NCBI GenBank assembly: GCA_949317995.1
Contig: OX439051.1
Location: 44,953,250-45,017,249 of the forward strand
Reading direction: 5' to 3'
Length of the DNA: 64,000 bases
Source of the DNA: Acholoe squamosa
Taxonomy: Eukaryota; Annelida; Polychaeta; Phyllodocida; Polynoidae
A program made the position numbers and the translations under genes. Positions 1 to 64,000 of the stretch are shown here, one piece after another. The stretch's first letter is position 1. The number at the start of each line of letters is the position of its first letter. The notes under the pieces were generated by a model that searched no databases, was not told the DNA's origin, and saw only the letters and a program-made list of their open reading frames with translations.

Positions 1-480
1 GACAAAGTTTCAAGACTGCAGCACCAGTGGTTTTAGACTTTTGGATTTTTACCATGTCCCTGTTAACTTTTTGACACAAATCCATGAGAACATGCAAATT
101 GAGACCCAGAACTACCATCTGACAAAGTTTCAAGACTGCAGCACCAGTGGTTTTAGACTTTTGGATTTTTACCATGTCCCTGTTAACTTTTTGACACAAA
201 TGCATAAAAAAATGCAATTTAAGGTCCAGAACTACCATTCGACAAAGTTTCAAGACTGCAGCACCAGCGGTTTTAGACTTTTGGATTTTTACCATGTCCC
301 TGTTAACTTTTTGACACAAATAAATGAAAAAATACAATTTAAGGTCCAGAACTACCATTGGACAAAGTTTCAAGACTGCAGCACCAGCGGTTTTAGACTT
401 TTGGATTTTTACCATGTCCCTTTTAGCTTTGTGACACAAATCCATGAGAACATGCAAATTGACACCCAGAACTACCATCT
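1..480. repeat. H1: partial HOR, m4-k-n-m8
   Basis: Right-hand tail of a k/n-lineage unit cut by the window edge. Its four monomers are each 120 bp. Confidence 0.9.
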
Positions 481-1441
481 GACAAAGTTTCAAGACGGAA
501 GCACCAGCGGTTTTAGACTTGTGGACTTTTTACCATGTCCCTGTTAACTTTTTGACACAAATGCATGACAAAATGCAATTTAAGGTCCAGAACTACCAGT
601 CGACAAAGTTTCAAGCCTGCAACACCAGCGGTTTTAAACTTTTGGATTTTTACCATGTCCCTGTTAACTTTTTGACACAAATAACTGAAAAAATACAATT
701 TAAGGTCCAGAACTAACATGGGACAAAGTTTCAAGACTGCAGCACCAGCAGTTTTAGACTTTTGGATTTTCACCATGTCCCTTTTAGCTTTGTGACACAA
801 ATCCATGAGAACATGCAAATAGACACCCAGAACTACCATCTGACAAAGTTTCAAGACTGCAGCACCAGTGGTTTTAGACTTTTGGATTTTTACCATGTCC
901 CTGTTAACTTTTTGACACAAATCCATGAGAACATGCAAATTGAGACCCAGAACTACCATCTGACAAAGTTTCAAGACTGCAGCACCAGCGGTTTTAGACT
1001 TTTGGATTTTTACCATGTCCCTGTTAACTTTTTGACACAAATAACTGAAAAAATGCAATTTAAGGTCCATAACTACCATCTGACAAAGTTTCAAGACTGC
1101 AGCACCAGTGGTTTTAAACTTTTGGTTTTTTACCATGTCCCTGTTAACTTTTTGACACAAATGCATGAAAAAATGCAATTTAAGGTCCAGAACTACCAGT
1201 CGACAAAGTTTCAAGACTGCAACACCAGCGGTTTTAGAATTTTGGATTTTTACCATGTCCCTGTTAACTTTTTGACACAAATAACTGAAAAAATGCAATT
1301 TAAGGTCCAGAACTACCATCTGACAAAGTTTCAAGACTGCAGCACCAGCGGTTTTAGACTTTTGGATTTTTACCATGTCCCTTTTAGCTTTGTGACACAA
1401 ATCCATGAGAACATGCAAATTGACACCCAGAACTACCATCT
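481..1441. repeat. H2: 961-bp HOR m1 to m8
   Basis: m1 carries cggaagc. Private changes are ggttttttacc in m6 and agaattttgg in m7. Confidence 0.93.
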
Positions 1442-3120
1442 GACAAAGTTTCAAGACTGAAGCACCAGCGGTTTTAGACTTGTGGACTTTTTACCATGTC
1501 CCTGTTAACTTTTTGACACAAATGCATGACAAAATGCAATTTAAGGTCCAGAACTACCAGTCGACAAAGTTTCAAGCCTGCAACACCAGCGGTTTTAAAC
1601 TTTTGGATTTTTACCATGTCCCTGTTAACTTTTTGACACAAATAACTGAAAAAATACAATTTAAGGTCCAGAACTAACATGGGACAAAGTTTCAAGACTG
1701 CAGCACCAGCAGTTTTAGACTTTTGGATTTTCACCATGTCCCTTTTAGCTTTGTGACACAAATCCATGAGAACATGCAAATAGACACCCAGAACTACCAT
1801 CTGACAAAGTTTCAAGACTGCAGCACCAGTGGTTTTAGACTTTTGGATTTTTACCATGTCCCTGTTAACTTTTTGACACAAATCCATGAGAACATGCAAA
1901 TTGAGACCCAGAACTACCATCTGACAAAGTTTCAAGACTGCAGCACCAGCGGTTTAGACTTTTGGATTTTTACCATGTCCCTGTTAACTTTTTGACACAA
2001 ATAACTGAAAAAATGCAATTTAAGGTCCATAACTACCATCTGACAAAGTTTCAAGACTGCAGCACCAGTGGTTTTAGACTTTTGGATTTTTACCATGTCC
2101 CTGTTAACTTTTTGACACAAATCCATGAGAACATGCAAATTGAGACCCAGAACTACCATCTGACAAAGTTTCAAGACTGCAGCACCAGTGGTTTTAGACT
2201 TTTGGATTTTTACCATGTCCCTGTTAACTTTTTGACACAAATGCATAAAAAAATGCAATTTAAGGTCCAGAACTACCATTCGACAAAGTTTCAAGACTGC
2301 AGCACCAGCGGTTTTAGACTTTTGGATTTTTACCATGTCCCTGTTAACTTTTTGACACAAATAACTGAAAAAATACAATTTAAGGTCCAGAACTAACATG
2401 GGACAAAGTTTCAAGACTGCAGCACCAGCGGTTTTAGACTTTTGGATTTTCACCATGTCCCTTTTAGCTTTGTGACACAAATCCATGAGAACATGCAAAT
2501 AGACACCCAGAACTACCATCTGACAAAGTTTCAAGACTGCAGCACCAGTGGTTTTAGACTTTTGGATTTTTACCATGTCCCTGTTAACTTTTTGACACAA
2601 ATCCATGAGAACATGCAAATTGAGACCCAGAACTACCATCTGACAAAGTTTCAAGACTGCAGCACCAGCGGTTTAGACTTTTGGATTTTTACCATGTCCC
2701 TGTTAACTTTTTGACACAAATAACTGAAAAAATGCAATTTAAGGTCCATAACTACCATCTGACAAAGTTTCAAGACTGCAGCACCAGTGGTTTTAGACTT
2801 TTGGATTTTTACCATGTCCCTGTTAACTTTTTGACACAAATCCATGAGAACATGCAAATTGAGACCCAGAACTACCATCTGACAAAGTTTCAAGACTGCA
2901 GCACCAGTGGTTTTAGACTTTTGGATTTTTACCATGTCCCTGTTAACTTTTTGACACAAATGCATAAAAAAATGCAATTTAAGGTCCAGAACTACCATTC
3001 GACAAAGTTTCAAGACTGCAGCACCAGCGGTTTTAGACTTTTGGATTTTTACCATGTCCCTTTTAGCTTTGTGACACAAATCCATGAGAACATGCAAATT
3101 GACACCCAGAACTACCATCT
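1442..3120. repeat. H3: expanded HOR, 14 monomers, 1,679 bp
   Basis: Order is m1-m2-m3-m4-m5-m4-k-(n/m2)-m3-m4-m5-m4-k-m8. Both m5 copies have the one-base T deletion, hence 14 x 120 + 1 - 2. The m3-m4-m5-m4-k segment is repeated with a 719-bp period (1683 and 2402). Confidence 0.9.
2282..2401. repeat. Hybrid monomer n/m2
   Basis: The first half has agcggttttagac as in n. The second half has ataactgaaaaaatac and aactaacatgg as in m2. It marks a crossover between the k/n lineage and m2, and it is followed by m3. Confidence 0.8.
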
Positions 3121-3721
3121 GACAAAGTTTCAAGACGGAAGCACCAGCGGTTTTAGACTTGTGGACTTTTTACCATGTCCCTGTTAACTTTTTGACACAA
3201 ATGCATGACAAAATGCAATTTAAGGTCCAGAACTACCAGTCGACAAAGTTTCAAGCCTGCAACACCAGCGGTTTTAAACTTTTGGATTTTTACCATGTCC
3301 CTGTTAACTTTTTGACACAAATAACTGAAAAAATACAATTTAAGGTCCAGAACTAACATGGGACAAAGTTTCAAGACTGCAGCACCAGCAGTTTTAGACT
3401 TTTGGATTTTCACCATGTCCCTTTTAGCTTTGTGACACAAATCCATGAGAACATGCAAATAGACACCCAGAACTACCATCTGACAAAGTTTCAAGACTGC
3501 AGCACCAGTGGTTTTAGACTTTTGGATTTTTACCATGTCCCTGTTAACTTTTTGACACAAATCCATGAGAACATGCAAATTGAGACCCAGAACTACCATC
3601 TGACAAAGTTTCAAGACTGCAGCACCAGCGGTTTTAGACTTTTGGATTTTTACCATGTCCCTGTTAACTTTTTGACACAAATAACTGAAAAAATGCAATT
3701 TAAGGTCCATAACTACCATCT

Positions 3722-3841
3722 GACAAAGTTTCAAGACTGCAGCACCAGTGGTTTTAGACTTTTGGATTTTTACCATGTCCCTGTTAACTTTTTGACACAA
3801 ATGCATAAAAAAATGCAATTTAAGGTCCAGAACTACCATTC
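3722..3841. repeat. Reference monomer k (alternative to m6)
   Basis: Carries agtgg, gcataaaaaaatgc and the end ccattc. It occupies the sixth position of unit H4, where m6 would be expected, so k and m6 look like allelic states of one HOR position. Found only in 1-10 kb, near 17, 21 and 28 kb, and after 57 kb. Confidence 0.9.
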
Positions 3842-3961
3842 GACAAAGTTTCAAGACTGCAGCACCAGCGGTTTTAGACTTTTGGATTTTTACCATGTCC
3901 CTGTTAACTTTTTGACACAAATAAATGAAAAAATACAATTTAAGGTCCAGAACTACCATTG
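3842..3961. repeat. Reference monomer n (alternative to m7)
   Basis: Carries agcgg, ataaatgaaaaaatac and the end ccattg. It always follows k when intact and precedes m8. It occupies the seventh position of unit H4. Confidence 0.9.
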
Positions 3962-4081
3962 GACAAAGTTTCAAGACTGCAGCACCAGCGGTTTTAGACT
4001 TTTGGATTTTTACCATGTCCCTTTTAGCTTTGTGACACAAATCCATGAGAACATGCAAATTGACACCCAGAACTACCATCT

Positions 4082-4202
4082 GACAAAGTTTCAAGACGGA
4101 AGCACCAGCGGTTTTAGACTTGTGGACTTTTTACCATGTCCCTGTTAACTTTTTGACACAAATGCATGACAAAATGCAATTTAAGGTCCAGAACTACCAG
4201 TC
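4082..4202. repeat. Reference monomer m1 (121 bp, phase-breaking)
   Basis: Recognised by gacttgtggactttt, one base longer than gacttttggattttt elsewhere, which makes the HOR 961 rather than 960 bp. It also has ctgaagc or cggaagc in place of ctgcagc, the second-half motif gcatgacaaaatgc, and the end ccagtc, so that a gtcgac (SalI) site forms at the junction with m2. Confidence 0.95.
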
Positions 4203-4322
4203 GACAAAGTTTCAAGCCTGCAACACCAGCGGTTTTAAACTTTTGGATTTTTACCATGTCCCTGTTAACTTTTTGACACAAATAACTGAAAAAATACAAT
4301 TTAAGGTCCAGAACTAACATGG
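4203..4322. repeat. Reference monomer m2
   Basis: Diagnostic bases are caagcctgcaac, ggttttaaac, the second half ataactgaaaaaatacaa, and the end aactaacatgg. It lacks the ctgcag site. In many units from 12.5 kb onward the motif ggtccag becomes gggccag, and in a few units the A-run gains or the following bases lose one base. Confidence 0.95.
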
Positions 4323-4442
4323 GACAAAGTTTCAAGACTGCAGCACCAGCAGTTTTAGACTTTTGGATTTTCACCATGTCCCTTTTAGCTTTGTGACACA
4401 AATCCATGAGAACATGCAAATAGACACCCAGAACTACCATCT
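4323..4442. repeat. Reference monomer m3
   Basis: Diagnostic bases are agcag (CpG decayed to CpA), gattttcacc, cccttttagctttgtg in place of ccctgttaacttttt, and aaatagacaccc. Some units start gacaaac instead of gacaaag. Confidence 0.95.
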
Positions 4443-4562
4443 GACAAAGTTTCAAGACTGCAGCACCAGTGGTTTTAGACTTTTGGATTTTTACCATGTC
4501 CCTGTTAACTTTTTGACACAAATCCATGAGAACATGCAAATTGAGACCCAGAACTACCATCT
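4443..4562. repeat. Reference monomer m4
   Basis: Diagnostic bases are agtgg (CpG decayed to TpG), ccctgttaac (HpaI-type), tccatgagaacatgc and attgagaccc. The same monomer also precedes k in the k/n lineage, so it is shared by both HOR lineages. Confidence 0.95.
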
Positions 4563-4682
4563 GACAAAGTTTCAAGACTGCAGCACCAGCGGTTTTAGAC
4601 TTTTGGATTTTTACCATGTCCCTGTTAACTTTTTGACACAAATAACTGAAAAAATGCAATTTAAGGTCCATAACTACCATCT
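4563..4682. repeat. Reference monomer m5
   Basis: Diagnostic bases are agcgg with the CpG intact, ataactgaaaaaatgc and ggtccataac. In several units its T-run has lost one base (cggtttagac), giving a 119-bp monomer. Other variants in this monomer are aggacc and tttagg. Confidence 0.95.
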
Positions 4683-4802
4683 GACAAAGTTTCAAGACTG
4701 CAGCACCAGTGGTTTTAGACTTTTGGATTTTTACCATGTCCCTGTTAACTTTTTGACACAAATGCATGAAAAAATGCAATTTAAGGTCCAGAACTACCAG
4801 TC
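4683..4802. repeat. Reference monomer m6
   Basis: Diagnostic bases are agtgg, gcatgaaaaaatgc and the end ccagtc, giving the second gtcgac junction of the HOR, 600 bp after the first. In a subset of units the start reads gactttagc instead of gactgcagc. Confidence 0.95.
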
Positions 4803-4922
4803 GACAAAGTTTCAAGACTGCAACACCAGCGGTTTTAGACTTTTGGATTTTTACCATGTCCCTGTTAACTTTTTGACACAAATAACTGAAAAAATGCAAT
4901 TTAAGGTCCAGAACTACCATCT
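4803..4922. repeat. Reference monomer m7
   Basis: Diagnostic bases are ctgcaac followed by cggttttagac, ataactgaaaaaatgc and ggtccagaac. It resembles m5 in the second half. A subset of units ends aactatcat instead of aactaccat. Confidence 0.95.
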
Positions 4923-5042
4923 GACAAAGTTTCAAGACTGCAGCACCAGCGGTTTTAGACTTTTGGATTTTTACCATGTCCCTTTTAGCTTTGTGACACA
5001 AATCCATGAGAACATGCAAATTGACACCCAGAACTACCATCT
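4923..5042. repeat. Reference monomer m8
   Basis: Diagnostic bases are agcgg, cccttttagctttgtg and aaattgacaccc. A common alternative, m8W, has agcag and actttggg. A third version (m8d), found only before the divergent block, ends aaagtgagacccgg and ccaaat. Confidence 0.95.
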
Positions 5043-6362
5043 GACAAAGTTTCAAGACTGAAGCACCAGCGGTTTTAGACTTGTGGACTTTTTACCATGT
5101 CCCTGTTAACTTTTTGACACAAATGCATGACAAAATGCAATTTAAGGTCCAGAACTACCAGTCGACAAAGTTTCAAGCCTGCAACACCAGCGGTTTTAAA
5201 CTTTTGGATTTTTACCATGTCCCTGTTAACTTTTTGACACAAATAACTGAAAAAATACAATTTAAGGTCCAGAACTAACATGGGACAAAGTTTCAAGACT
5301 GCAGCACCAGCAGTTTTAGACTTTTGGATTTTCACCATGTCCCTTTTAGCTTTGTGACACAAATCCATGAGAACATGCAAATAGACACCCAGAACTACCA
5401 TCTGACAAAGTTTCAAGACTGCAGCACCAGTGGTTTTAGACTTTTGGATTTTTACCATGTCCCTGTTAACTTTTTGACACAAATCCATGAGAACATGCAA
5501 ATTGAGACCCAGAACTACCATCTGACAAAGTTTCAAGACTGCAGCACCAGCGGTTTAGACTTTTGGATTTTTACCATGTCCCTGTTAACTTTTTGACACA
5601 AATAACTGAAAAAATGCAATTTAAGGTCCATAACTACCATCTGACAAAGTTTCAAGACTGCAGCACCAGTGGTTTTAGACTTTTGGATTTTTACCATGTC
5701 CCTGTTAACTTTTTGACACAAATGCATGAAAAAATGCAATTTAAGGTCCAGAACTACCAGTCGACAAAGTTTCAAGACTGCAACACCAGCGGTTTTAGAC
5801 TTTTGGATTTTTACCATGTCCCTGTTAACTTTTTGACACAAATAACTGAAAAAATGCAATTTAAGGTCCAGAACTACCATCTGACAAAGTTTCAAGACTG
5901 CAGCACCAGCGGTTTCAGACTTTTGGATTTTTACCATGTCCCTGTTAACTTTTTGACACAAATCCATGAGAACATGCAAATTGAGACCCAGAACTACCAT
6001 CTGACAAAGTTTCAAGACTGCAGCACCAGTGGTTTTAGACTTTTGGATTTTTACCATGTCCCTGTTAACTTTTTGACACAAATGCATAAAAAAATGCAAT
6101 TTAAGGTCCAGAACTACCATTCGACAAAGTTTCAAGACTGCAGCACCAGCGGTTTTAGACTTTTGGATTTTTACCATGTCCCTGTTAACTTTTTGACACA
6201 AATAAATGAAAAAATACAATTTAAGGTCCAGAACTACCATTGGACAAAGTTTCAAGACTGCAGCACCAGCGGTTTTAGACTTTTGGATTTTTACCATGTC
6301 CCTTTTAGCTTTGTGACACAAATCCATGAGAACATGCAAATTGACACCCAGAACTACCATCT
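5043..6362. repeat. H6: 11-monomer HOR, 1,320 bp
   Basis: Order is m1-m2-m3-m4-m5-m6-m7-m4-k-n-m8, with the T deletion in m5. It reads as a standard unit up to m7 joined to the m4-k-n-m8 tail of the k/n lineage. The second m4 has ggtttcagac. Confidence 0.93.
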
Positions 6363-7682
6363 GACAAAGTTTCAAGACGGAAGCACCAGCGGTTTTAGAC
6401 TTGTGGACTTTTTACCATGTCCCTGTTAACTTTTTGACACAAATGCATGACAAAATGCAATTTAAGGTCCAGAACTACCAGTCGACAAAGTTTCAAGCCT
6501 GCAACACCAGCGGTTTTAAACTTTTGGATTTTTACCATGTCCCTGTTAACTTTTTGACACAAATAACTGAAAAAATACAATTTAAGGTCCAGAACTAACA
6601 TGGGACAAAGTTTCAAGACTGCAGCACCAGCAGTTTTAGACTTTTGGATTTTCACCATGTCCCTTTTAGCTTTGTGACACAAATCCATGAGAACATGCAA
6701 ATAGACACCCAGAACTACCATCTGACAAAGTTTCAAGACTGCAGCACCAGTGGTTTTAGACTTTTGGATTTTTACCATGTCCCTGTTAACTTTTTGACAC
6801 AAATCCATGAGAACATGCAAATTGAGACCCAGAACTACCATCTGACAAAGTTTCAAGACTGCAGCACCAGCGGTTTAGACTTTTGGATTTTTACCATGTC
6901 CCTGTTAACTTTTTGACACAAATAACTGAAAAAATGCAATTTAAGGTCCATAACTACCATCTGACAAAGTTTCAAGACTGCAGCACCAGTGGTTTTAGAC
7001 TTTTGGATTTTTACCATGTCCCTGTTAACTTTTTGACACAAATGCATGAAAAAATGCAATTTAAGGTCCAGAACTACCAGTCGACAAAGTTTCAAGACTG
7101 CAACACCAGCGGTTTTAGACTTTTGGATTTTTACCATGTCCCTGTTAACTTTTTGACACAAATAACTGAAAAAATGCAATTTAAGGTCCAGAACTACCAT
7201 CTGACAAAGTTTCAAGACTGCAGCACCAGCGGTTTTAGACTTTTGGATTTTTACCATGTCCCTGTTAACTTTTTGACACAAATCCATGAGAACATGCAAA
7301 TTGAGACCCAGAACTACCATCTGACAAAGTTTCAAGACTGCAGCACCAGTGGTTTTAGACTTTTGGATTTTTACCATGTCCCTGTTAACTTTTTGACACA
7401 AATGCATAAAAAAATGCAATTTAAGGTCCAGAACTACCATTCGACAAAGTTTCAAGACTGCAGCACCAGCGGTTTTAGACTTTTGGATTTTTACCATGTC
7501 CCTGTTAACTTTTTGACACAAATAAATGAAAAAATACAATTTAAGGTCCAGAACTACCATTGGACAAAGTTTCAAGACTGCAGCACCAGCGGTTTTAGAC
7601 TTTTGGATTTTTACCATGTCCCTTTTAGCTTTGTGACACAAATCCATGAGAACATGCAAATTGACACCCAGAACTACCATCT
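6363..7682. repeat. H7: 11-monomer HOR, 1,320 bp, tandem copy of H6
   Basis: Same monomer order and same m5 deletion as H6. It differs in cggaagc in m1 and in lacking the ggtttcagac change. Confidence 0.93.
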
Positions 7683-8883
7683 GACAAAGTTTCAAGACGG
7701 AAGCACCAGCGGTTTTAGACTTGTGGACTTTTTACCATGTCCCTGTTAACTTTTTGACACAAATGCATGACAAAATGCAATTTAAGGTCCAGAACTACCA
7801 GTCGACAAAGTTTCAAGCCTGCAACACCAGCGGTTTTAAACTTTTGGATTTTTACCATGTCCCTGTTAACTTTTTGACACAAATAACTGAAAAAATACAA
7901 TTTAAGGTCCAGAACTAACATGGGACAAAGTTTCAAGACTGCAGCACCAGCAGTTTTAGACTTTTGGATTTTCACCATGTCCCTTTTAGCTTTGTGACAC
8001 AAATCCATGAGAACATGCAAATAGACACCCAGAACTACCATCTGACAAAGTTTCAAGACTGCAGCACCAGTGGTTTTAGACTTTTGGATTTTTACCATGT
8101 CCCTGTTAACTTTTTGACACAAATCCATGAGAACATGCAAATTGAGACCCAGAACTACCATCTGACAAAGTTTCAAGACTGCAGCACCAGCGGTTTTAGA
8201 CTTTTGGATTTTTACCATGTCCCTGTTAACTTTTTGACACAAATAACTGAAAAAATGCAATTTAAGGTCCATAACTACCATCTGACAAAGTTTCAAGACT
8301 GCAGCACCAGTGGTTTTAGACTTTTGGATTTTTACCATGTCCCTGTTAACTTTTTGACACAAATCCATGAGAACATGCAAATTGAGACCCAGAACTACCA
8401 TCTGACAAAGTTTCAAGACTGCAGCACCAGCGGTTTTAGACTTTTGGATTTTTACCATGTCCCTGTTAACTTTTTGACACAAATAACTGAAAAAATGCAA
8501 TTTAAGGTCCATAACTACCATCTGACAAAGTTTCAAGACTGCAGCACCAGTGGTTTTAGACTTTTGGATTTTTACCATGTCCCTGTTAACTTTTTGACAC
8601 AAATGCATGAAAAAATGCAATTTAAGGTCCAGAACTACCAGTCGACAAAGTTTCAAGACTGCAACACCAGCGGTTTTAGACTTTTGGATTTTTACCATGT
8701 CCCTGTTAACTTTTTGACACAAATAACTGAAAAAATGCAATTTAAGGTCCAGAACTACCATCTGACAAAGTTTCAAGACTGCAGCACCAGCGGTTTTAGA
8801 CTTTTGGATTTTTACCATGTCCCTTTTAGCTTTGTGACACAAATCCATGAGAACATGCAAATTGACACCCAGAACTACCATCT
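7683..8883. repeat. H8: 10-monomer HOR, 1,201 bp
   Basis: The m4-m5 pair is duplicated (8044-8283 and 8284-8523). The m5 copies have a full T-run. m1 carries cggaagc. Confidence 0.92.
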
Positions 8884-15967: not shown

Positions 15968-18307
15968 GACAAAGTTTCAAGACTGAAGCACCAGCGGTTT
16001 TAGACTTGTGGACTTTTTACCATGTCCCTGTTAACTTTTTGACACAAATGCATGACAAAATGCAATTTAAGGTCCAGAACTACCAGTCGACAAAGTTTCA
16101 AGCCTGCAACACCAGCGGTTTTAAACTTTTGGATTTTTACCATGTCCCTGTTAACTTTTTGACACAAATAACTGAAAAAATACAATTTAAGGGCCAGAAC
16201 TAACATGGGACAAAGTTTCAAGACTGCAGCACCAGCAGTTTTAGACTTTTGGATTTTCACCATGTCCCTTTTAGCTTTGTGACACAAATCCATGAGAACA
16301 TGCAAATAGACACCCAGAACTACCATCTGACAAAGTTTCAAGACTGCAGCACCAGTGGTTTTAGACTTTTGGATTTTTACCATGTCCCTGTTAACTTTTT
16401 GACACAAATCCATGAGAACATGCAAATTGAGACCCAGAACTACCATCTGACAAAGTTTCAAGACTGCAGCACCAGCGGTTTTAGACTTTTGGATTTTTAC
16501 CATGTCCCTGTTAACTTTTTGACACAAATAACTGAAAAAATGCAATTTAAGGTCCATAACTACCATCTGACAAAGTTTCAAGACTGCAGCACCAGTGGTT
16601 TTAGACTTTTGGATTTTTACCATGTCCCTGTTAACTTTTTGACACAAATGCATGAAAAAATGCAATTTAAGGTCCAGAACTACCAGTCGACAAAGTTTCA
16701 AGACTGCAACACCAGCGGTTTTAGACTTTTGGATTTTTACCATGTCCCTGTTAACTTTTTGACACAAATAACTGAAAAAATGCAATTTAAGGTCCAGAAC
16801 TACCATCTGACAAAGTTTCAAGACTGCAGCACCAGCAGTTTTAGACTTTGGGATTTTTACCATGTCCCTTTTAGCTTTGTGACACAAATCCATGAGAACA
16901 TGCAAAGTGAGACCCGGAACTACCAAATGACAAAGTATCAAGACTGAAGCACCAGCGGTTTTTGAGATTTGGGTTTTTACCCTGTTACCTTAACTCAAAT
17001 AACATGATTAAGTTGTGTTGAGTCGTTTAACACAGCAGTCACCCACCTTATAATGTTTAGACATAAATACATGAAAACATGCAATTTAAGGTCCAGAACT
17101 ACCATTCGACAAAGTTTCAAGACTGCAGCACCAGCGGTTTTAGACTTTTGGATTTTTACCATGTCCCTTTTAGCTTTGTGACACAAATCCATGAGAACAT
17201 GCAAATTGACACCCAGAACTACCATCTGACAAAGTTTCAAGACTGCAGCACCAGTGGTTTTAGACTTTTGGATTTTTACCATGTCCCTGTTAACTTTTTG
17301 ACACAAATCCATGAGAACATGCAAATTGAGACCCAGAACTACCATCTGACAAAGTTTCAAGACTGCAGCACCAGTGGTTTTAGACTTTTGGATTTTTACC
17401 ATGTCCCTGTTAACTTTTTGACACAAATGCATAAAAAAATGCAATTTAAGGTCCAGAACTACCATTCGACAAAGTTTCAAGACTGCAGCACCAGCGGTTT
17501 TAGACTTTTGGATTTTTACCATGTCCCTGTTAACTTTTTGACACAAATAAATGAAAAAATACAATTTAAGGTCCAGAACTACCATTGGACAAAGTTTCAA
17601 GACTGCAGCACCAGCGGTTTTAGACTTTTGGATTTTTACCATGTCCCTTTTAGCTTTGTGACACAAATCCATGAGAACATGCAAATAGACACCCAGAACT
17701 ACCATCTGACAAAGTTTCAAGACTGCAGCACCAGTGGTTTTAGACTTTTGGATTTTTACCATGTCCCTGTTAACTTTTTGACACAAATCCATGAGAACAT
17801 GCAAATTGAGACCCAGAACTACCATCTGACAAAGTTTCAAGACTGCAGCACCAGCGGTTTTAGACTTTTGGATTTTTACCATGTCCCTGTTAACTTTTTG
17901 ACACAAATAACTGAAAAAATGCAATTTAAGGTCCATAACTACCATCTGACAAAGTTTCAAGACTGCAGCACCAGTGGTTTTAGACTTTTGGATTTTTACC
18001 ATGTCCCTGTTAACTTTTTGACACAAATGCATGAAAAAATGCAATTTAAGGTCCAGAACTACCAGTCGACAAAGTTTCAAGACTGCAACACCAGCGGTTT
18101 TAGACTTTTGGATTTTTACCATGTCCCTGTTAACTTTTTGACACAAATAACTGAAAAAATGCAATTTAAGGTCCAGAACTACCATCTGACAAAGTTTCAA
18201 GACTGCAGCACCAGCGGTTTTAGACTTTTGGATTTTTACCATGTCCCTTTTAGCTTTGTGACACAAATCCATGAGAACATGCAAATTGACACCCAGAACT
18301 ACCATCT
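15968..18307. repeat. H15: 2,340-bp compound unit with divergent block
   Basis: A 961-bp unit (gggccag in m2) ends in m8d at 16928. The 179-bp divergent block follows, then ten monomers: m8-m4-k-n-(m8/m3)-m4-m5-m6-m7-m8. Confidence 0.92.
16929..17107. repeat. Divergent block, copy 1 (179 bp)
   Basis: Starts like a diverged m1 (gacaaagtatcaagactgaag) and ends like a diverged k (tacatgaaaacatgc, ccattc). About 30-45 bp in the middle (roughly 17010-17050) do not resemble any monomer. It sits exactly where an m1 is expected, after m8d. The core has an imperfect dyad: ttaactcaa at 16990-16998 against ttgagt (17018-17023) plus ttaa (17027-17030), and tgtgtt (17014-17019) against aacaca (17029-17034). 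Confidence 0.9.
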
Positions 18308-19268
18308 GACAAAGTTTCAAGACTGAAGCACCAGCGGTTTTAGACTTGTGGACTTTTTACCATGTCCCTGTTAACTTTTTGACACAAATGCATGACAAAA
18401 TGCAATTTAAGGTCCAGAACTACCAGTCGACAAAGTTTCAAGCCTGCAACACCAGCGGTTTTAAACTTTTGGATTTTTACCATGTCCCTGTTAACTTTTT
18501 GACACAAATAACTGAAAAAATACAATTTAAGGGCCAGAACTAACATGGGACAAAGTTTCAAGACTGCAGCACCAGCAGTTTTAGACTTTTGGATTTTCAC
18601 CATGTCCCTTTTAGCTTTGTGACACAAATCCATGAGAACATGCAAATAGACACCCAGAACTACCATCTGACAAAGTTTCAAGACTGCAGCACCAGTGGTT
18701 TTAGACTTTTGGATTTTTACCATGTCCCTGTTAACTTTTTGACACAAATCCATGAGAACATGCAAATTGAGACCCAGAACTACCATCTGACAAAGTTTCA
18801 AGACTGCAGCACCAGCGGTTTTAGACTTTTGGATTTTTACCATGTCCCTGTTAACTTTTTGACACAAATAACTGAAAAAATGCAATTTAAGGTCCATAAC
18901 TACCATCTGACAAAGTTTCAAGACTGCAGCACCAGTGGTTTTAGACTTTTGGATTTTTACCATGTCCCTGTTAACTTTTTGACACAAATGCATGAAAAAA
19001 TGCAATTTAAGGTCCAGAACTACCAGTCGACAAAGTTTCAAGACTGCAACACCAGCGGTTTTAGACTTTTGGATTTTTACCATGTCCCTGTTAACTTTTT
19101 GACACAAATAACTGAAAAAATGCAATTTAAGGTCCAGAACTATCATCTGACAAAGTTTCAAGACTGCAGCACCAGCGGTTTTAGACTTTTGGATTTTTAC
19201 CATGTCCCTTTTAGCTTTGTGACACAAATCCATGAGAACATGCAAATTGACACCCAGAACTACCATCT
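18308..19268. repeat. H16: 961-bp HOR, H12-like
   Basis: gggccag in m2 together with aactatcat at the end of m7. Confidence 0.93.
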
Positions 19269-20229
19269 GACAAAGTTTCAAGACTGAAGCACCAGCGGTT
19301 TTAGACTTGTGGACTTTTTACCATGTCCCTGTTAACTTTTTGACACAAATGCATGACAAAATGCAATTTAAGGTCCAGAACTACCAGTCGACAAAGTTTC
19401 AAGCCTGCAACACCAGCGGTTTTAAACTTTTGGATTTTTACCATGTCCCTGTTAACTTTTTGACACAAATAACTGAAAAAATACAATTTAAGGTCCAGAA
19501 CTAACATGGGACAAAGTTTCAAGACTGCAGCACCAGCAGTTTTAGACTTTTGGATTTTCACCATGTCCCTTTTAGCTTTGTGACACAAATCCATGAGAAC
19601 ATGCAAATAGACACCCAGAACTACCATCTGACAAAGTTTCAAGACTGCAGCACCAGTGGTTTTAGACTTTTGGATTTTTACCATGTCCCTGTTAACTTTT
19701 TGACACAAATCCATGAGAACATGCAAATTGAGACCCAGAACTACCATCTGACAAAGTTTCAAGACTGCAGCACCAGCGGTTTTAGACTTTTGGATTTTTA
19801 CCATGTCCCTGTTAACTTTTTGACACAAATAACTGAAAAAATGCAATTTAAGGTCCATAACTACCATCTGACAAAGTTTCAAGACTGCAGCACCAGTGGT
19901 TTTAGACTTTTGGATTTTTACCATGTCCCTGTTAACTTTTTGACACAAATGCATGAAAAAATGCAATTTAAGGTCCAGAACTACCAGTCGACAAAGTTTC
20001 AAGACTGCAACACCAGCGGTTTTAGACTTTTGGATTTTTACCATGTCCCTGTTAACTTTTTGACACAAATAACTGAAAAAATGCAATTTAAGGTCCAGAA
20101 CTACCATCTGACAAAGTTTCAAGACTGCAGCACCAGCGGTTTTAGACTTTTGGATTTTTACCATGTCCCTTTTAGCTTTGTGACACAAATCCATGAGAAC
20201 ATGCAAATTGACACCCAGAACTACCATCT
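19269..20229. repeat. H17: 961-bp HOR, plain
   Basis: ggtccag, no private changes seen. First unit of the 6,304-bp duplicated segment. Confidence 0.93.
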
Positions 20230-21969
20230 GACAAAGTTTCAAGACTGAAGCACCAGCGGTTTTAGACTTGTGGACTTTTTACCATGTCCCTGTTAACTTT
20301 TTGACACAAATGCATGACAAAATGCAATTTAAGGTCCAGAACTACCAGTCGACAAAGTTTCAAGCCTGCAACACCAGCGGTTTTAAACTTTTGGATTTTT
20401 ACCATGTCCCTGTTAACTTTTTGACACAAATAACTGAAAAAATACAATTTAAGGGCCAGAACTAACATGGGACAAAGTTTCAAGACTGCAGCACCAGCAG
20501 TTTTAGACTTTTGGATTTTCACCATGTCCCTTTTAGCTTTGTGACACAAATCCATGAGAACATGCAAATAGACACCCAGAACTACCATCTGACAAAGTTT
20601 CAAGACTGCAGCACCAGTGGTTTTAGACTTTTGGATTTTTACCATGTCCCTGTTAACTTTTTGACACAAATCCATGAGAACATGCAAATTGAGACCCAGA
20701 ACTACCATCTGACAAAGTTTCAAGACTGCAGCACCAGCGGTTTTAGACTTTTGGATTTTTACCATGTCCCTGTTAACTTTTTGACACAAATAACTGAAAA
20801 AATGCAATTTAAGGTCCATAACTACCATCTGACAAAGTTTCAAGACTGCAGCACCAGTGGTTTTAGACTTTTGGATTTTTACCATGTCCCTGTTAACTTT
20901 TTGACACAAATGCATGAAAAAATGCAATTTAAGGTCCAGAACTACCAGTCGACAAAGTTTCAAGACTGCAACACCAGCGGTTTTAGACTTTTGGATTTTT
21001 ACCATGTCCCTGTTAACTTTTTGACACAAATAACTGAAAAAATGCAATTTAAGGTCCAGAACTACCATCTGACAAAGTTTCAAGACTGCAGCACCAGCAG
21101 TTTTAGACTTTGGGATTTTTACCATGTCCCTTTTAGCTTTGTGACACAAATCCATGAGAACATGCAAAGTGAGACCCGGAACTACCAAATGACAAAGTAT
21201 CAAGACTGAAGCACCAGCGGTTTTTGAGATTTGGGTTTTTACCCTGTTACCTTAACTCAAATAACATGATTAAGTTGTGTTGAGTCGTTTAACACAGCAG
21301 TCACCCACCTTATAATGTTTAGACATAAATACATGAAAACATGCAATTTAAGGTCCAGAACTACCATTCGACAAAGTTTCAAGACTGCAGCACCAGCGGT
21401 TTTAGACTTTTGGATTTTTACCATGTCCCTTTTAGCTTTGTGACACAAATCCATGAGAACATGCAAATTGACACCCAGAACTACCATCTGACAAAGTTTC
21501 AAGACTGCAGCACCAGTGGTTTTAGACTTTTGGATTTTTACCATGTCCCTGTTAACTTTTTGACACAAATCCATGAGAACATGCAAATTGAGACCCAGAA
21601 CTACCATCTGACAAAGTTTCAAGACTGCAGCACCAGTGGTTTTAGACTTTTGGATTTTTACCATGTCCCTGTTAACTTTTTGACACAAATGCATAAAAAA
21701 ATGCAATTTAAGGTCCAGAACTACCATTCGACAAAGTTTCAAGACTGCAGCACCAGCGGTTTTAGACTTTTGGATTTTTACCATGTCCCTGTTAACTTTT
21801 TGACACAAATAAATGAAAAAATACAATTTAAGGTCCAGAACTACCATTGGACAAAGTTTCAAGACTGCAGCACCAGCGGTTTTAGACTTTTGGATTTTTA
21901 CCATGTCCCTTTTAGCTTTGTGACACAAATCCATGAGAACATGCAAATTGACACCCAGAACTACCATCT
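20230..21969. repeat. H18: 1,740-bp compound unit with divergent block
   Basis: 961-bp unit ending in m8d, then the divergent block, then m8-m4-k-n-m8. Matches the first part of H15 at an offset of 4,262 bp. Confidence 0.93.
21191..21369. repeat. Divergent block, copy 2 (179 bp)
   Basis: Reads identically to copy 1 by eye. It is followed by a standard m8, not by the d monomer. Confidence 0.9.
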
Positions 21970-22690
21970 GACAAAGTTTCAAGACTGAAGCACCAGCGGT
22001 TTTAGACTTGTGGACTTTTTACCATGTCCCTGTTAACTTTTTGACACAAATGCATGACAAAATGCAATTTAAGGTCCAGAACTACCAGTCGACAAAGTTT
22101 CAAGCCTGCAACACCAGCGGTTTTAAACTTTTGGATTTTTACCATGTCCCTGTTAACTTTTTGACACAAATAACTGAAAAAATACAATTTAAGGTCCAGA
22201 ACTAACATGGGACAAAGTTTCAAGACTGCAGCACCAGCAGTTTTAGACTTTTGGATTTTCACCATGTCCCTTTTAGCTTTGTGACACAAATCCATGAGAA
22301 CATGCAAATAGACACCCAGAACTACCATCTGACAAAGTTTCAAGACTGCAGCACCAGTGGTTTTAGACTTTTGGATTTTTACCATGTCCCTGTTAACTTT
22401 TTGACACAAATCCATGAGAACATGCAAATTGAGACCCAGAACTACCATCTGACAAAGTTTCAAGACTGCAGCACCAGCGGTTTTAGACTTTTGGATTTTT
22501 ACCATGTCCCTGTTAACTTTTTGACACAAATAACTGAAAAAATGCAATTTAAGGTCCAGAACTACCATCTGACAAAGTTTCAAGACTGCAGCACCAGCAG
22601 TTTTAGACTTTGGGATTTTTACCATGTCCCTTTTAGCTTTGTGACACAAATCCATGAGAACATGCAAATTGACACCCAGAACTACCATCT
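21970..22690. repeat. H19: contracted HOR, 6 monomers, 721 bp
   Basis: Order is m1-m2-m3-m4-(m5/m7)-m8W. The fifth monomer (22451-22570) has the m5 start (ctgcagc) and the m7 end (ggtccagaac). This is a different deletion from the one in H11 despite the equal length. Confidence 0.92.
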
Positions 22691-23651
22691 GACAAAGTTT
22701 CAAGACTGAAGCACCAGCGGTTTTAGACTTGTGGACTTTTTACCATGTCCCTGTTAACTTTTTGACACAAATGCATGACAAAATGCAATTTAAGGTCCAG
22801 AACTACCAGTCGACAAAGTTTCAAGCCTGCAACACCAGCGGTTTTAAACTTTTGGATTTTTACCATGTCCCTGTTAACTTTTTGACACAAATAACTGAAA
22901 AAATACAATTTAAGGTCCAGAACTAACATGGGACAAAGTTTCAAGACTGCAGCACCAGCAGTTTTAGACTTTTGGATTTTCACCATGTCCCTTTTAGCTT
23001 TGTGACACAAATCCATGAGAACATGCAAATAGACACCCAGAACTACCATCTGACAAAGTTTCAAGACTGCAGCACCAGTGGTTTTAGACTTTTGGATTTT
23101 TACCATGTCCCTGTTAACTTTTTGACACAAATCCATGAGAACATGCAAATTGAGACCCAGAACTACCATCTGACAAAGTTTCAAGACTGCAGCACCAGCG
23201 GTTTTAGACTTTTGGATTTTTACCATGTCCCTGTTAACTTTTTGACACAAATAACTGAAAAAATGCAATTTAAGGTCCATAACTACCATCTGACAAAGTT
23301 TCAAGACTGCAGCACCAGTGGTTTTAGACTTTTGGATTTTTACCATGTCCCTGTTAACTTTTTGACACAAATGCATGAAAAAATGCAATTTAAGGTCCAG
23401 AACTACCAGTCGACAAAGTTTCAAGACTGCAACACCAGCGGTTTTAGACTTTTGGATTTTTACCATGTCCCTGTTAACTTTTTGACACAAATAACTGAAA
23501 AAATGCAATTTAAGGTCCAGAACTACCATCTGACAAAGTTTCAAGACTGCAGCACCAGCAGTTTTAGACTTTGGGATTTTTACCATGTCCCTTTTAGCTT
23601 TGTGACACAAATCCATGAGAACATGCAAATTGACACCCAGAACTACCATCT
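22691..23651. repeat. H20: 961-bp HOR with m8W
   Basis: ggtccag in m2; m8W form at the end. Confidence 0.93.
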
Positions 23652-24611
23652 GACAAAGTTTCAAGACTGAAGCACCAGCGGTTTTAGACTTGTGGACTTT
23701 TTACCATGTCCCTGTTAACTTTTTGACACAAATGCATGACAAAATGCAATTTAAGGTCCAGAACTACCAGTCGACAAAGTTTCAAGCCTGCAACACCAGC
23801 GGTTTTAAACTTTTGGATTTTTACCATGTCCCTGTTAACTTTTTGACACAAATAACTGAAAAAATAAATTTAAGGTCCAGAACTAACATGGGACAAACTT
23901 TCAAGACTGCAGCACCAGCAGTTTTAGACTTTTGGATTTTCACCATGTCCCTTTTAGCTTTGTGACACAAATCCATGAGAACATGCAAATAGACACCCAG
24001 AACTACCATCTGACAAAGTTTCAAGACTGCAGCACCAGTGGTTTTAGACTTTTGGATTTTTACCATGTCCCTGTTAACTTTTTGACACAAATCCATGAGA
24101 ACATGCAAATTGAGACCCAGAACTACCATCTGACAAAGTTTCAAGACTGCAGCACCAGCGGTTTTAGACTTTTGGATTTTTACCATGTCCCTGTTAACTT
24201 TTTGACACAAATAACTGAAAAAATGCAATTTAAGGTCCATAACTACCATCTGACAAAGTTTCAAGACTTTAGCACCAGTGGTTTTAGACTTTTGGATTTT
24301 TACCATGTCCCTGTTAACTTTTTGACACAAATGCATGAAAAAATGCAATTTAAGGTCCAGAACTACCAGTCGACAAAGTTTCAAGACTGCAACACCAGCG
24401 GTTTTAGACTTTTGGATTTTTACCATGTCCCTGTTAACTTTTTGACACAAATAACTGAAAAAATGCAATTTAAGGTCCAGAACTACCATCTGACAAAGTT
24501 TCAAGACTGCAGCACCAGCGGTTTTAGACTTTTGGATTTTTACCATGTCCCTTTTAGCTTTGTGACACAAATCCATGAGAACATGCAAATTGACACCCAG
24601 AACTACCATCT
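23652..24611. repeat. H21: 960-bp HOR with one-base deletion in m2
   Basis: m2 reads aaaaaataaattt, having lost the c of atacaa. m3 starts gacaaac and m6 has gactttagc. First unit with the linked gacaaac and gactttagc markers. Confidence 0.93.
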
Positions 24612-25572
24612 GACAAAGTTTCAAGACTGAAGCACCAGCGGTTTTAGACTTGTGGACTTTTTACCATGTCCCTGTTAACTTTTTGACACAAATGCATGAC
24701 AAAATGCAATTTAAGGTCCAGAACTACCAGTCGACAAAGTTTCAAGCCTGCAACACCAGCGGTTTTAAACTTTTGGATTTTTACCATGTCCCTGTTAACT
24801 TTTTGACACAAATAACTGAAAAAATACAATTTAAGGGCCAGAACTAACATGGGACAAAGTTTCAAGACTGCAGCACCAGCAGTTTTAGACTTTTGGATTT
24901 TCACCATGTCCCTTTTAGCTTTGTGACACAAATCCATGAGAACATGCAAATAGACACCCAGAACTACCATCTGACAAAGTTTCAAGACTGCAGCACCAGT
25001 GGTTTTAGACTTTTGGATTTTTACCATGTCCCTGTTAACTTTTTGACACAAATCCATGAGAACATGCAAATTGAGACCCAGAACTACCATCTGACAAAGT
25101 TTCAAGACTGCAGCACCAGCGGTTTTAGACTTTTGGATTTTTACCATGTCCCTGTTAACTTTTTGACACAAATAACTGAAAAAATGCAATTTAAGGTCCA
25201 TAACTACCATCTGACAAAGTTTCAAGACTGCAGCACCAGTGGTTTTAGACTTTTGGATTTTTACCATGTCCCTGTTAACTTTTTGACACAAATGCATGAA
25301 AAAATGCAATTTAAGGTCCAGATCTACCAGTCGACAAAGTTTCAAGACTGCAACACCAGCGGTTTTAGACTTTTGGATTTTTACCATGTCCCTGTTAACT
25401 TTTTGACACAAATAACTGAAAAAATGCAATTTAAGGTCCATAACTACCATCTGACAAAGTTTCAAGACTGCAGCACCAGCAGTTTTAGACTTTGGGATTT
25501 TTACCATGTCCCTTTTAGCTTTGTGACACAAATCCATGAGAACATGCAAATTGACACCCAGAACTACCATCT
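24612..25572. repeat. H22: 961-bp HOR with private agatct
   Basis: gggccag in m2, ccagatctacc (a BglII-type site) at the end of m6, ggtccataac in m7, and m8W. Confidence 0.93.
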
Positions 25573-26533
25573 GACAAAGTTTCAAGACTGAAGCACCAGC
25601 GGTTTTAGACTTGTGGACTTTTTACCATGTCCCTGTTAACTTTTTGACACAAATGCATGACAAAATGCAATTTAAGGTCCAGAACTACCAGTCGACAAAG
25701 TTTCAAGCCTGCAACACCAGCGGTTTTAAACTTTTGGATTTTTACCATGTCCCTGTTAACTTTTTGACACAAATAACTGAAAAAATACAATTTAAGGTCC
25801 AGAACTAACATGGGACAAAGTTTCAAGACTGCAGCACCAGCAGTTTTAGACTTTTGGATTTTCACCATGTCCCTTTTAGCTTTGTGACACAAATCCATGA
25901 GAACATGCAAATAGACACCCAGAACTACCATCTGACAAAGTTTCAAGACTGCAGCACCAGTGGTTTTAGACTTTTGGATTTTTACCATGTCCCTGTTAAC
26001 TTTTTGACACAAATCCATGAGAACATGCAAATTGAGACCCAGAACTACCATCTGACAAAGTTTCAAGACTGCAGCACCAGCGGTTTTAGACTTTTGGATT
26101 TTTACCATGTCCCTGTTAACTTTTTGACACAAATAACTGAAAAAATGCAATTTAAGGTCCATAACTACCATCTGACAAAGTTTCAAGACTGCAGCACCAG
26201 TGGTTTTAGACTTTTGGATTTTTACCATGTCCCTGTTAACTTTTTGACACAAATGCATGAAAAAATGCAATTTAAGGTCCAGAACTACCAGTCGACAAAG
26301 TTTCAAGACTGCAACACCAGCGGTTTTAGACTTTTGGATTTTTACCATGTCCCTGTTAACTTTTTGACACAAATAACTGAAAAAATGCAATTTAAGGTCC
26401 AGAACTACCATCTGACAAAGTTTCAAGACTGCAGCACCAGCGGTTTTAGACTTTTGGATTTTTACCATGTCCCTTTTAGCTTTGTGACACAAATCCATGA
26501 GAACATGCAAATTGACACCCAGAACTACCATCT
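25573..26533. repeat. H23: 961-bp HOR, copy of H17
   Basis: Plain unit opening the second 6,304-bp copy. Confidence 0.93.
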
Positions 26534-28273
26534 GACAAAGTTTCAAGACTGAAGCACCAGCGGTTTTAGACTTGTGGACTTTTTACCATGTCCCTGTTAA
26601 CTTTTTGACACAAATGCATGACAAAATGCAATTTAAGGTCCAGAACTACCAGTCGACAAAGTTTCAAGCCTGCAACACCAGCGGTTTTAAACTTTTGGAT
26701 TTTTACCATGTCCCTGTTAACTTTTTGACACAAATAACTGAAAAAATACAATTTAAGGGCCAGAACTAACATGGGACAAAGTTTCAAGACTGCAGCACCA
26801 GCAGTTTTAGACTTTTGGATTTTCACCATGTCCCTTTTAGCTTTGTGACACAAATCCATGAGAACATGCAAATAGACACCCAGAACTACCATCTGACAAA
26901 GTTTCAAGACTGCAGCACCAGTGGTTTTAGACTTTTGGATTTTTACCATGTCCCTGTTAACTTTTTGACACAAATCCATGAGAACATGCAAATTGAGACC
27001 CAGAACTACCATCTGACAAAGTTTCAAGACTGCAGCACCAGCGGTTTTAGACTTTTGGATTTTTACCATGTCCCTGTTAACTTTTTGACACAAATAACTG
27101 AAAAAATGCAATTTAAGGTCCATAACTACCATCTGACAAAGTTTCAAGACTGCAGCACCAGTGGTTTTAGACTTTTGGATTTTTACCATGTCCCTGTTAA
27201 CTTTTTGACACAAATGCATGAAAAAATGCAATTTAAGGTCCAGAACTACCAGTCGACAAAGTTTCAAGACTGCAACACCAGCGGTTTTAGACTTTTGGAT
27301 TTTTACCATGTCCCTGTTAACTTTTTGACACAAATAACTGAAAAAATGCAATTTAAGGTCCAGAACTACCATCTGACAAAGTTTCAAGACTGCAGCACCA
27401 GCAGTTTTAGACTTTGGGATTTTTACCATGTCCCTTTTAGCTTTGTGACACAAATCCATGAGAACATGCAAAGTGAGACCCGGAACTACCAAATGACAAA
27501 GTATCAAGACTGAAGCACCAGCGGTTTTTGAGATTTGGGTTTTTACCCTGTTACCTTAACTCAAATAACATGATTAAGTTGTGTTGAGTCGTTTAACACA
27601 GCAGTCACCCACCTTATAATGTTTAGACATAAATACATGAAAACATGCAATTTAAGGTCCAGAACTACCATTCGACAAAGTTTCAAGACTGCAGCACCAG
27701 CGGTTTTAGACTTTTGGATTTTTACCATGTCCCTTTTAGCTTTGTGACACAAATCCATGAGAACATGCAAATTGACACCCAGAACTACCATCTGACAAAG
27801 TTTCAAGACTGCAGCACCAGTGGTTTTAGACTTTTGGATTTTTACCATGTCCCTGTTAACTTTTTGACACAAATCCATGAGAACATGCAAATTGAGACCC
27901 AGAACTACCATCTGACAAAGTTTCAAGACTGCAGCACCAGTGGTTTTAGACTTTTGGATTTTTACCATGTCCCTGTTAACTTTTTGACACAAATGCATAA
28001 AAAAATGCAATTTAAGGTCCAGAACTACCATTCGACAAAGTTTCAAGACTGCAGCACCAGCGGTTTTAGACTTTTGGATTTTTACCATGTCCCTGTTAAC
28101 TTTTTGACACAAATAAATGAAAAAATACAATTTAAGGTCCAGAACTACCATTGGACAAAGTTTCAAGACTGCAGCACCAGCGGTTTTAGACTTTTGGATT
28201 TTTACCATGTCCCTTTTAGCTTTGTGACACAAATCCATGAGAACATGCAAATTGACACCCAGAACTACCATCT
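26534..28273. repeat. H24: 1,740-bp compound unit, copy of H18
   Basis: 961-bp unit with gggccag and m8d, divergent block, then m8-m4-k-n-m8. Confidence 0.93.
27495..27673. repeat. Divergent block, copy 3 (179 bp)
   Basis: Identical by eye to copies 1 and 2. Its presence is explained by the 6,304-bp duplication. Confidence 0.9.
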
Positions 28274-28994
28274 GACAAAGTTTCAAGACTGAAGCACCAG
28301 CGGTTTTAGACTTGTGGACTTTTTACCATGTCCCTGTTAACTTTTTGACACAAATGCATGACAAAATGCAATTTAAGGTCCAGAACTACCAGTCGACAAA
28401 GTTTCAAGCCTGCAACACCAGCGGTTTTAAACTTTTGGATTTTTACCATGTCCCTGTTAACTTTTTGACACAAATAACTGAAAAAATACAATTTAAGGTC
28501 CAGAACTAACATGGGACAAAGTTTCAAGACTGCAGCACCAGCAGTTTTAGACTTTTGGATTTTCACCATGTCCCTTTTAGCTTTGTGACACAAATCCATG
28601 AGAACATGCAAATAGACACCCAGAACTACCATCTGACAAAGTTTCAAGACTGCAGCACCAGTGGTTTTAGACTTTTGGATTTTTACCATGTCCCTGTTAA
28701 CTTTTTGACACAAATCCATGAGAACATGCAAATTGAGACCCAGAACTACCATCTGACAAAGTTTCAAGACTGCAGCACCAGCGGTTTTAGACTTTTGGAT
28801 TTTTACCATGTCCCTGTTAACTTTTTGACACAAATAACTGAAAAAATGCAATTTAAGGTCCAGAACTACCATCTGACAAAGTTTCAAGACTGCAGCACCA
28901 GCAGTTTTAGACTTTGGGATTTTTACCATGTCCCTTTTAGCTTTGTGACACAAATCCATGAGAACATGCAAATTGACACCCAGAACTACCATCT
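28274..28994. repeat. H25: 721-bp HOR, copy of H19
   Basis: Same m5/m7 hybrid (28755-28874) and m8W. Confidence 0.92.
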
Positions 28995-56866: not shown

Positions 56867-57045
56867 GACAAAGTATCAAGACTGAAGCACCAGCGGTTTT
56901 TGAGATTTGGGTTTTTACCCTGTTACCTTAACTCAAATAACATGATTAAGTTGTGTTGAGTCGTTTAACACAGCAGTCACCCACCTTATAATGTTTAGAC
57001 ATAAATACATGAAAACATGCAATTTAAGGTCCAGAACTACCATTC
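56867..57045. repeat. Divergent block, copy 4 (179 bp)
   Basis: Same sequence as copies 1-3 by eye, but followed by monomer d. Confidence 0.9.
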
Positions 57046-57164: not shown

Positions 57165-57644
57165 GACAAAGTTTCAAGACTGCAGCACCAGTGGTTTTAG
57201 ACTTTTGGATTTTTACCATGTCCCTGTTAACTTTTTGACACAAATCCATGAGAACATGCAAATTGAGACCCAGAACTACCATCTGACAAAGTTTCAAGAC
57301 TGCAGCACCAGTGGTTTTAGACTTTTGGATTTTTACCATGTCCCTGTTAACTTTTTGACACAAATGCATAAAAAAATGCAATTTAAGGTCCAGAACTACC
57401 ATTCGACAAAGTTTCAAGACTGCAGCACCAGCGGTTTTAGACTTTTGGATTTTTACCATGTCCCTGTTAACTTTTTGACACAAATAAATGAAAAAATACA
57501 ATTTAAGGTCCAGAACTACCATTGGACAAAGTTTCAAGACTGCAGCACCAGCGGTTTTAGACTTTTGGATTTTTACCATGTCCCTTTTAGCTTTGTGACA
57601 CAAATCCATGAGAACATGCAAATTGACACCCAGAACTACCATCT

Positions 57645-62808: not shown

Positions 62809-62987
62809 GACAAAGTATCAAGACTGAAGCACCAGCGGTTTTTGAGATTTGGGTTTTTACCCTGTTACCTTAACTCAAATAACATGATTAAGTTGTGTTG
62901 AGTCGTTTAACACAGCAGTCACCCACCTTATAATGTTTAGACATAAATACATGAAAACATGCAATTTAAGGTCCAGAACTACCATTC
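62809..62987. repeat. Divergent block, copy 5 (179 bp)
   Basis: Same sequence as the other four copies; followed by monomer d. Confidence 0.9.
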
Positions 62988-63106
62988 GACAAAGTTTCAA
63001 GACTGCAGCACCAGCGGTTTTCGACTTTTGGATTTTTACCATGTCGCTGTTAACTTTTGGACACAAATCATGAAAATATGCATCTTAATTTCCACAACTA
63101 CCATCT
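62988..63106. repeat. Divergent monomer d, copy 2 (119 bp)
   Basis: Identical by eye to copy 1, at the same place relative to the divergent block. Confidence 0.9.
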
Positions 63107-63586
63107 GACAAAGTTTCAAGACTGCAGCACCAGTGGTTTTAGACTTTTGGATTTTTACCATGTCCCTGTTAACTTTTTGACACAAATCCATGAGAACATG
63201 CAAATTGAGACCCAGAACTACCATCTGACAAAGTTTCAAGACTGCAGCACCAGTGGTTTTAGACTTTTGGATTTTTACCATGTCCCTGTTAACTTTTTGA
63301 CACAAATGCATAAAAAAATGCAATTTAAGGTCCAGAACTACCATTCGACAAAGTTTCAAGACTGCAGCACCAGCGGTTTTAGACTTTTGGATTTTTACCA
63401 TGTCCCTGTTAACTTTTTGACACAAATAAATGAAAAAATACAATTTAAGGTCCAGAACTACCATTGGACAAAGTTTCAAGACTGCAGCACCAGCGGTTTT
63501 AGACTTTTGGATTTTTACCATGTCCCTTTTAGCTTTGTGACACAAATCCATGAGAACATGCAAATTGACACCCAGAACTACCATCT

Positions 63587-64000
63587 GACAAAGTTTCAAG
63601 ACTGAAGCACCAGCGGTTTTAGACTTGTGGACTTTTTACCATGTCCCTGTTAACTTTTTGACACAAATGCATGACAAAATGCAATTTAAGGTCCAGAACT
63701 ACCAGTCGACAAAGTTTCAAGCCTGCAACACCAGCGGTTTTAAACTTTTGGATTTTTACCATGTCCCTGTTAACTTTTTGACACAAATAACTGAAAAAAT
63801 ACAATTTAAGGTCCAGAACTAACATGGGACAAAGTTTCAAGACTGCAGCACCAGCAGTTTTAGACTTTTGGATTTTCACCATGTCCCTTTTAGCTTTGTG
63901 ACACAAATCCATGAGAACATGCAAATAGACACCCAGAACTACCATCTGACAAAGTTTCAAGACTGCAGCACCAGTGGTTTTAGACTTTTGGATTTTTACC
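63587..64000. repeat. H60: partial HOR at window edge
   Basis: m1, m2 (ggtccag), m3 and the first 53 bases of m4. No sign of the array ending. Confidence 0.92.

Follow-up and report, generated by a model that had tools for sequence, protein, structure and literature searches.

A layered higher-order-repeat satellite array, probably centromeric, in the annelid Acholoe squamosa

A long stretch of DNA made of nothing but satellite raises the question of how the array to which it belongs is organised and whether that array could be a centromere. The stretch considered here, referred to as the window, comprises the 64,000 bp at C17:44,953,250-45,017,249 in the genome of the annelid Acholoe squamosa (1,481,437,319 bases in 63 contigs), where C17 denotes the contig OX439051.1 of 63,477,726 bases. 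The window lies mid-chromosome and is the left part of the homogeneous core of an array of ~287 kb, with monomers from about 44,939,576 onwards, the final one starting at 45,226,939; the neighbouring stretches examined cover this array except for three 10-kb stretches inside its right part. The core is bordered on both sides by one older variant of one monomer type, and the array as a whole is probably the centromere of this chromosome.

The window is wholly satellite, with no gene, transposon or insertion in its 64 kb, as the initial annotation had described. It had proposed a period of 961 bp; among lags of 1-7,999, the two highest identities within the window are found at lag 120 (0.81) and lag 961 (0.76). 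The predicted number of about 530 monomers in one direction also agrees with the count, which is 531 monomer starts on the + strand and 530 complete monomers of ~120 bp, comprising 51 distinct sequences and spaced at 120 (451), 121 (63), 119 (11) or 179 bp (5), 530 spacings in total. Thirteen monomer types account for all 531 monomers starting in the window at three edits or fewer from the type, with 399 of the 531 identical to it. The array is tandem and of one orientation, as a 34-mer gave zero reverse matches in the array stretches examined.

Eight of the types recur in the order A-E-D-Y-X-B-F-C, forming a canonical 8-mer of 961 bp that is present in 42 copies with 19 distinct sequences. 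These eight types are 2-23 edits apart, on average 11.8 of 120, which corresponds to 90.2% identity, whereas the 42 units have a mean pairwise identity of 99.51%. Diverged monomers are thus contained in near-identical units, the signature of a higher-order repeat (HOR), and both values bear out the annotated divergence of about 10% within the unit and near identity between units. The fixed order of eight types that was annotated along with them stands for the 40,361 of 64,000 bp (63%) spanned by canonical units, but it breaks down in the other 37%, which is composed of 7-mers (AMGXBFC, seven copies), truncated units and blocks with types G, M, H, I and K. The longest exact repeat reported in the window is 6,629 bp at lag 6,304, and exact multi-kilobase repeats up to this length represent recent duplication of several units together. 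Chance or simple periodicity was ruled out as an explanation, as near-identical units recur window-wide and the 6,629-bp repeat is exact at its lag of 6,304. The large-scale features of the window are the following.

Window 1-64000, + strand: 120-bp satellite array, part of the ~287-kb array at about C17:44,939,576-45,227,058.
Window 19191-32123, + strand: a 6,304-bp block present twice in direct tandem, with exact identity over 6,629 bp.
Window 27495-56866, + strand: almost purely canonical 8-mer (961-bp) units between two 179-bp monomers, as read from the type strings.

The 179-bp monomers, type I, contain a segment not present in the other monomers, and each of the five in the window carries a 14-bp motif, GTGTTGAGTCGTTT, which we call the S-box.

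Window 16929-17107, + strand: 179-bp monomer type I, S-box at 17015-17028.
Window 21191-21369, + strand: 179-bp monomer type I, S-box at 21277-21290.
Window 27495-27673, + strand: 179-bp monomer type I, S-box at 27581-27594.
Window 56867-57045, + strand: 179-bp monomer type I, S-box at 56953-56966.
Window 62809-62987, + strand: 179-bp monomer type I, S-box at 62895-62908.

Using this monomer as a marker along the whole array, we examined 87 copies, 55 from the core, 14 from the left edge and 18 from the right. Across 230 kb of core, 45 of the 55 copies are identical. At eight sites, the majorities at the left and right edges have the same allele, which differs from that of the core: the core allele is found in 53-55 of the 55 core copies, and the outer allele in 13-14 of the 14 left copies and 13-17 of the 18 right copies. 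At offset 8, one of these sites, the eight canonical 120-bp types share their base with the outer allele, indicating that the core allele is derived there; offset 8 is the only one of the eight diagnostic sites at which the direction of change was worked out. Shared 31-mers separate core from edge as well. Core pieces clear of a 13.7-kb insertion, described below, have 64-100% of their 31-mers in common, and the left-edge piece has 33-47% in common with them. The mean number of edits to the nearest window type is ~6.5 at the left edge, 0.1-1.3 in the core and 2.2-4.8 at the right edge, counts that lean towards the window because the types were taken from it. Judged by the eight diagnostic sites in 87 monomers and by the k-mer matrix of core versus edges, the array has the layering typical of alpha satellite, with old variants on both flanks and the youngest in the centre.

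Base composition also distinguishes the satellite from its surroundings, the CpG observed/expected ratio being 0.20 in the window versus 0.39 in the left flank (C17:44,893,250-44,938,249); the low ratio would fit long-standing methylation of the array. The left flank near the array contains two minisatellites, one with the 12-bp unit AACACAAGTATT at C17:44,913,920-44,916,689 and one with a unit of about 60 bp at C17:44,928,451-44,930,083.

Whether the satellite is confined to this chromosome was assessed by pattern searches, with clusters surveyed on contigs C1-C17 among the matches listed (about 100 per search). Exact 60-mers of the window satellite gave 426 forward and 0 reverse matches genome-wide; the matches listed begin at C17, so that C1-C16 have none. 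All listed places of the 179-bp marker are likewise on C17 (about 100 of the 115 are in the list, which includes every place with at most one mismatch). Both results suggested a satellite private to C17, an idea overturned by a conserved 17-mer, ACAAAGTTTCAAGACTG, which is present in the window itself and has 2,016 forward and 94 reverse exact matches (reversed-pattern control, 0 and 0), including 71 on C3, 8 on C9 and at least 21 on C15.

The C3 cluster comprises 71 matches of the 17-mer, all on the minus strand, at 48.756-48.834 Mb, with 41 of the 70 spacings at 993-1000 bp, indicating a unit of 997 bp. On C9, S-box matches extend over 38.801-38.853 Mb, and 83 of the 98 listed spacings measure 455-466 bp (unit of ~459 bp). 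C15 has a 231-bp dimer whose copies are 98.5% identical and whose halves are 72% identical. The sampled stretches of C3 (1,020 bp), C15 (500 bp) and C9 (500 bp) consist of tandem monomers of the same family as the C17 satellite, with 70-76% identity to C17 types in the best of the BLAST matches listed, each longer than 80 bp, and a 60-bp match at 80% on C9. When 11 monomers were aligned globally, identity from contig to contig was 48-69%. A fourth sample, a 500-bp stretch of C6 found via the S-box, contains degenerate monomers and no regular unit. Three of the four other contigs sampled thus have a repeat unit of their own, and the family forms chromosome-specific HORs of 961 bp on C17, 997 bp on C3, ~459 bp on C9 and 231 bp on C15. 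Beside the degenerate monomers of C6 lies a 52-bp hairpin-like inverted repeat (bases 137-188 of C6:62,017,890-62,018,389).

A 30-mer family consensus, searched at up to three mismatches, added three matches within 1.1 kb on C7, four within 30 kb on C8 and a single one on C12 (control, 0 and 0). In total, clusters were found on seven of the contigs C1-C17 (C3, C6, C7, C8, C9, C15 and C17), six of them by at least two matches and C6 by its sequence, so that interior clusters of distant relatives, at about 48-76% identity, occur on six contigs besides C17. Those on C3, C6, C9, C15 and C17 sit at 30-73% along the contig. A 16-mer, GGATTTTTACCATGTC, has before C17 one match only, on C10, which chance can give; C16 was covered only by this search and by those with exact 60-mers and the 179-bp marker.

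Purity, from which the initial annotation had tentatively argued for the core of a centromere, turned out to be a weak guide. An insertion of 13,744 bp at C17:45,100,402-45,114,145 occupies the same array core 83 kb to the right of the window, so that the satellite is uninterrupted within the window but not across the array. The insertion has the ends CCCTTGAAACAA and TTGTTTCGAGGG and an interior rich in tandem repeats. Its left end has 386 genome matches at up to three mismatches (193 per strand), which assigns it to a mobile family; as the copies listed, about 100, are exact, this family has probably been active recently. No transposase was recognised among its open reading frames of at least 90 amino acids, many of which are of low complexity and on which no family search was run. 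The centromere reading draws stronger, though still indirect, support from the older variant on both flanks of the core, the related interior clusters elsewhere with their own units, and the mid-chromosome position, and it is on these that we regard the array as the probable centromere of C17.

Satellites are homogenised by unequal exchange and related recombination, and the observed anatomy could arise as follows. On C17, and likewise on three of the four other contigs sampled, amplification of one ~120-bp satellite family common to several chromosomes would have produced a different multi-monomer unit. On C17, unequal exchange or a similar recombination within the array would keep copying the 8-mer and larger blocks centrally, and the new near-identical units emerging mid-array would displace older variants to both edges. 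Homogenisation would then be fastest in the middle of the array, the copying may take place by exchange between sister or homologous arrays, and CENP-A chromatin and the kinetochore are predicted to be located on the array.

Several observations weigh against a layered centromeric array. The two edge pieces have only 26% of their 31-mers in common, below the share of either with most of the core, so that the mirror symmetry depends on the 179-bp monomers. Within these, five sites set apart the left edge alone and one the right edge alone. About five of the 18 right-edge copies are closer to the core type while lying among outer-type copies up to 45.206 Mb, indicating that the right layer boundary is not sharp. 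The insertion shows that the core is open to mobile elements. An exact CENP-B box, scanned as the 17-bp sequence that we take to be its consensus, is found neither in the window nor in the surrounding 264 kb, and at two mismatches there are 5 sites in the window versus about 87 from shuffled sequence. Of the reverse 17-mer matches, 23 of 94 are unplaced, on C15 or later contigs, with similar numbers in two other searches; they point to at least one further reverse cluster of the 120-bp family. Lone matches at 36.36 Mb on C7, 15 Mb from the cluster there, and at 12.94 Mb on C9, the latter at control level, leave a single cluster per chromosome unproven.

Part of this evidence would suit a heterochromatic family without a kinetochore role, spread across chromosomes as interstitial blocks or knobs and locally homogenised by the same recombination, which is the main rival and, in our judgement, an unlikely one. 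It would account for the small size of the array, ~287 kb on a 63-Mb chromosome, for the lone matches on C7 and C12, and for the lack of a cluster on ten of the contigs C1-C17 with the patterns used (single matches only on C10 and C12, none on C1, C2, C4, C5, C11, C13, C14 and C16). It fits less well with seven contigs each having a cluster at an interior place, and the combination of different units on four chromosomes with an older variant on both flanks is typical, if not exclusive, of centromeric arrays. According to passages of PMC8099727, mirrored symmetry is also seen in the 8q21.2 VNTR (variable-number tandem repeat), a locus bearing CENP-A in a neodicentric cell line. That the array or its regularity is an artefact of assembly, a repeat collapsed or falsely expanded, is very improbable. 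Exact multi-kilobase repeats such as that of 6,629 bp are places where assemblers may gain or lose copies, and the number of copies could be in error, but a collapse by itself would not produce a structure with landmarks throughout, namely variant units, irregularly spaced 179-bp monomers, differing edge variants and the 13.7-kb insertion. A centromeric array remains our preferred reading.

Long monomers of C3, C9 and C17, which were found without the S-box, all carry it unchanged; C6, found through part of it, was excluded from the conservation count. In the alignment of these long monomers, 52 of the 94 gap-free columns are invariant, 47.5% outside the S-box, and the S-box is the longest invariant run (14; column-shuffle p 0.004, with columns treated as independent and three chromosomes only). 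It occurs in 5 of the 531 monomers of the C17 window and is denser in the sampled C3 and C9 stretches. For the monomer start, conservation is no more than suggestive, with 77% in 16 bp around CTGACAAAGTTTCAAG against a mean of 58.5% (p 0.08, column shuffle, monomers not used in cluster finding). Binding by a centromere protein would explain the conservation of the S-box, which might then be the family's own protein-binding box and its equivalent of a CENP-B box, evolved independently, but such a function is speculation and we consider it doubtful. By eye, the 179-bp monomer resembles a C3-type S-box monomer to which the latter half of a regular 120-bp monomer has been joined.

The mitochondrial contig of the assembly, C63 (15,641 bp, invertebrate code), has the gene order cox1-cox2-cox3-nad6-cob-atp6-nad5-nad4L-nad4-nad1-nad3-nad2, a check that concerned these genes and not atp8 or the rRNA genes. 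Nine of the ten readings tested had a Pfam match, cox1 also matched, and the nad6 reading was without one; cox3 and nad6 were recognised by eye. The order carries all four annelid changes relative to the bilaterian ground pattern that are set out in passages of PMC2639372: nad6/cob after cox3, atp6 between cob and nad5, nad5 before nad4L/nad4, and nad3 between nad1 and nad2. Code and gene order together identify an annelid and speak against a vertebrate such as a fish and against a bivalve mollusc. A long TATG-type microsatellite lies at about 4,400-4,900 of C63.

HORs as such are widespread, as indicated by the survey of Melters et al. 2013 (PMC4053949), whose passages count 76 species with a clear HOR structure among the 171 that had Sanger data. 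According to the same passages, its reads seldom revealed HORs with at least three monomers, and finding chromosome-specific repeats was not what its method had been built for; neither 'annelid' nor 'Capitella' appears as a word in its main text. Compared with that survey, the present case adds an 8-mer, layering and different units on four chromosomes, all in assembled sequence. Among top-ranked literature titles and abstract starts, we found no annelid centromeric HOR; by its title, PMC4628103 offers a likeness in a chromosome-specific centromeric tandem repeat of sunflower.

The closest parallel is with the HOR arrays of primate alpha satellite, in which monomers are likewise arranged head to tail in multi-monomer units, with diverged types and near-identical units. 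Alpha satellite is one family across chromosomes with chromosome-specific units, as is the family to which the C17 satellite belongs. The differences lie in the monomer, 120 bp here as opposed to 171 bp (compared by length, not by sequence), in the much smaller array and in the phylum, Annelida. Passages of PMC8099727 describe the human chromosome 8 centromere as layered, with older repeats at its edges and the youngest in the middle, as in the C17 array, and show edge-to-edge similarity, which the C17 array has only weakly outside the 179-bp monomers. The C17 satellite works like alpha satellite without being a member of it, and represents a new case of a kind of organisation known from many animals and plants, with an unusually complete anatomy. 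If it is a centromere, it would be an annelid centromeric array known in assembled sequence, with an 8-mer HOR, layers and sister families on other chromosomes. The alpha-satellite mode of evolution, with a family, chromosome-specific units and central expansion, would then have arisen in annelids too, and there would be a second, independent lineage in which to test the layering model and what conserved boxes do.

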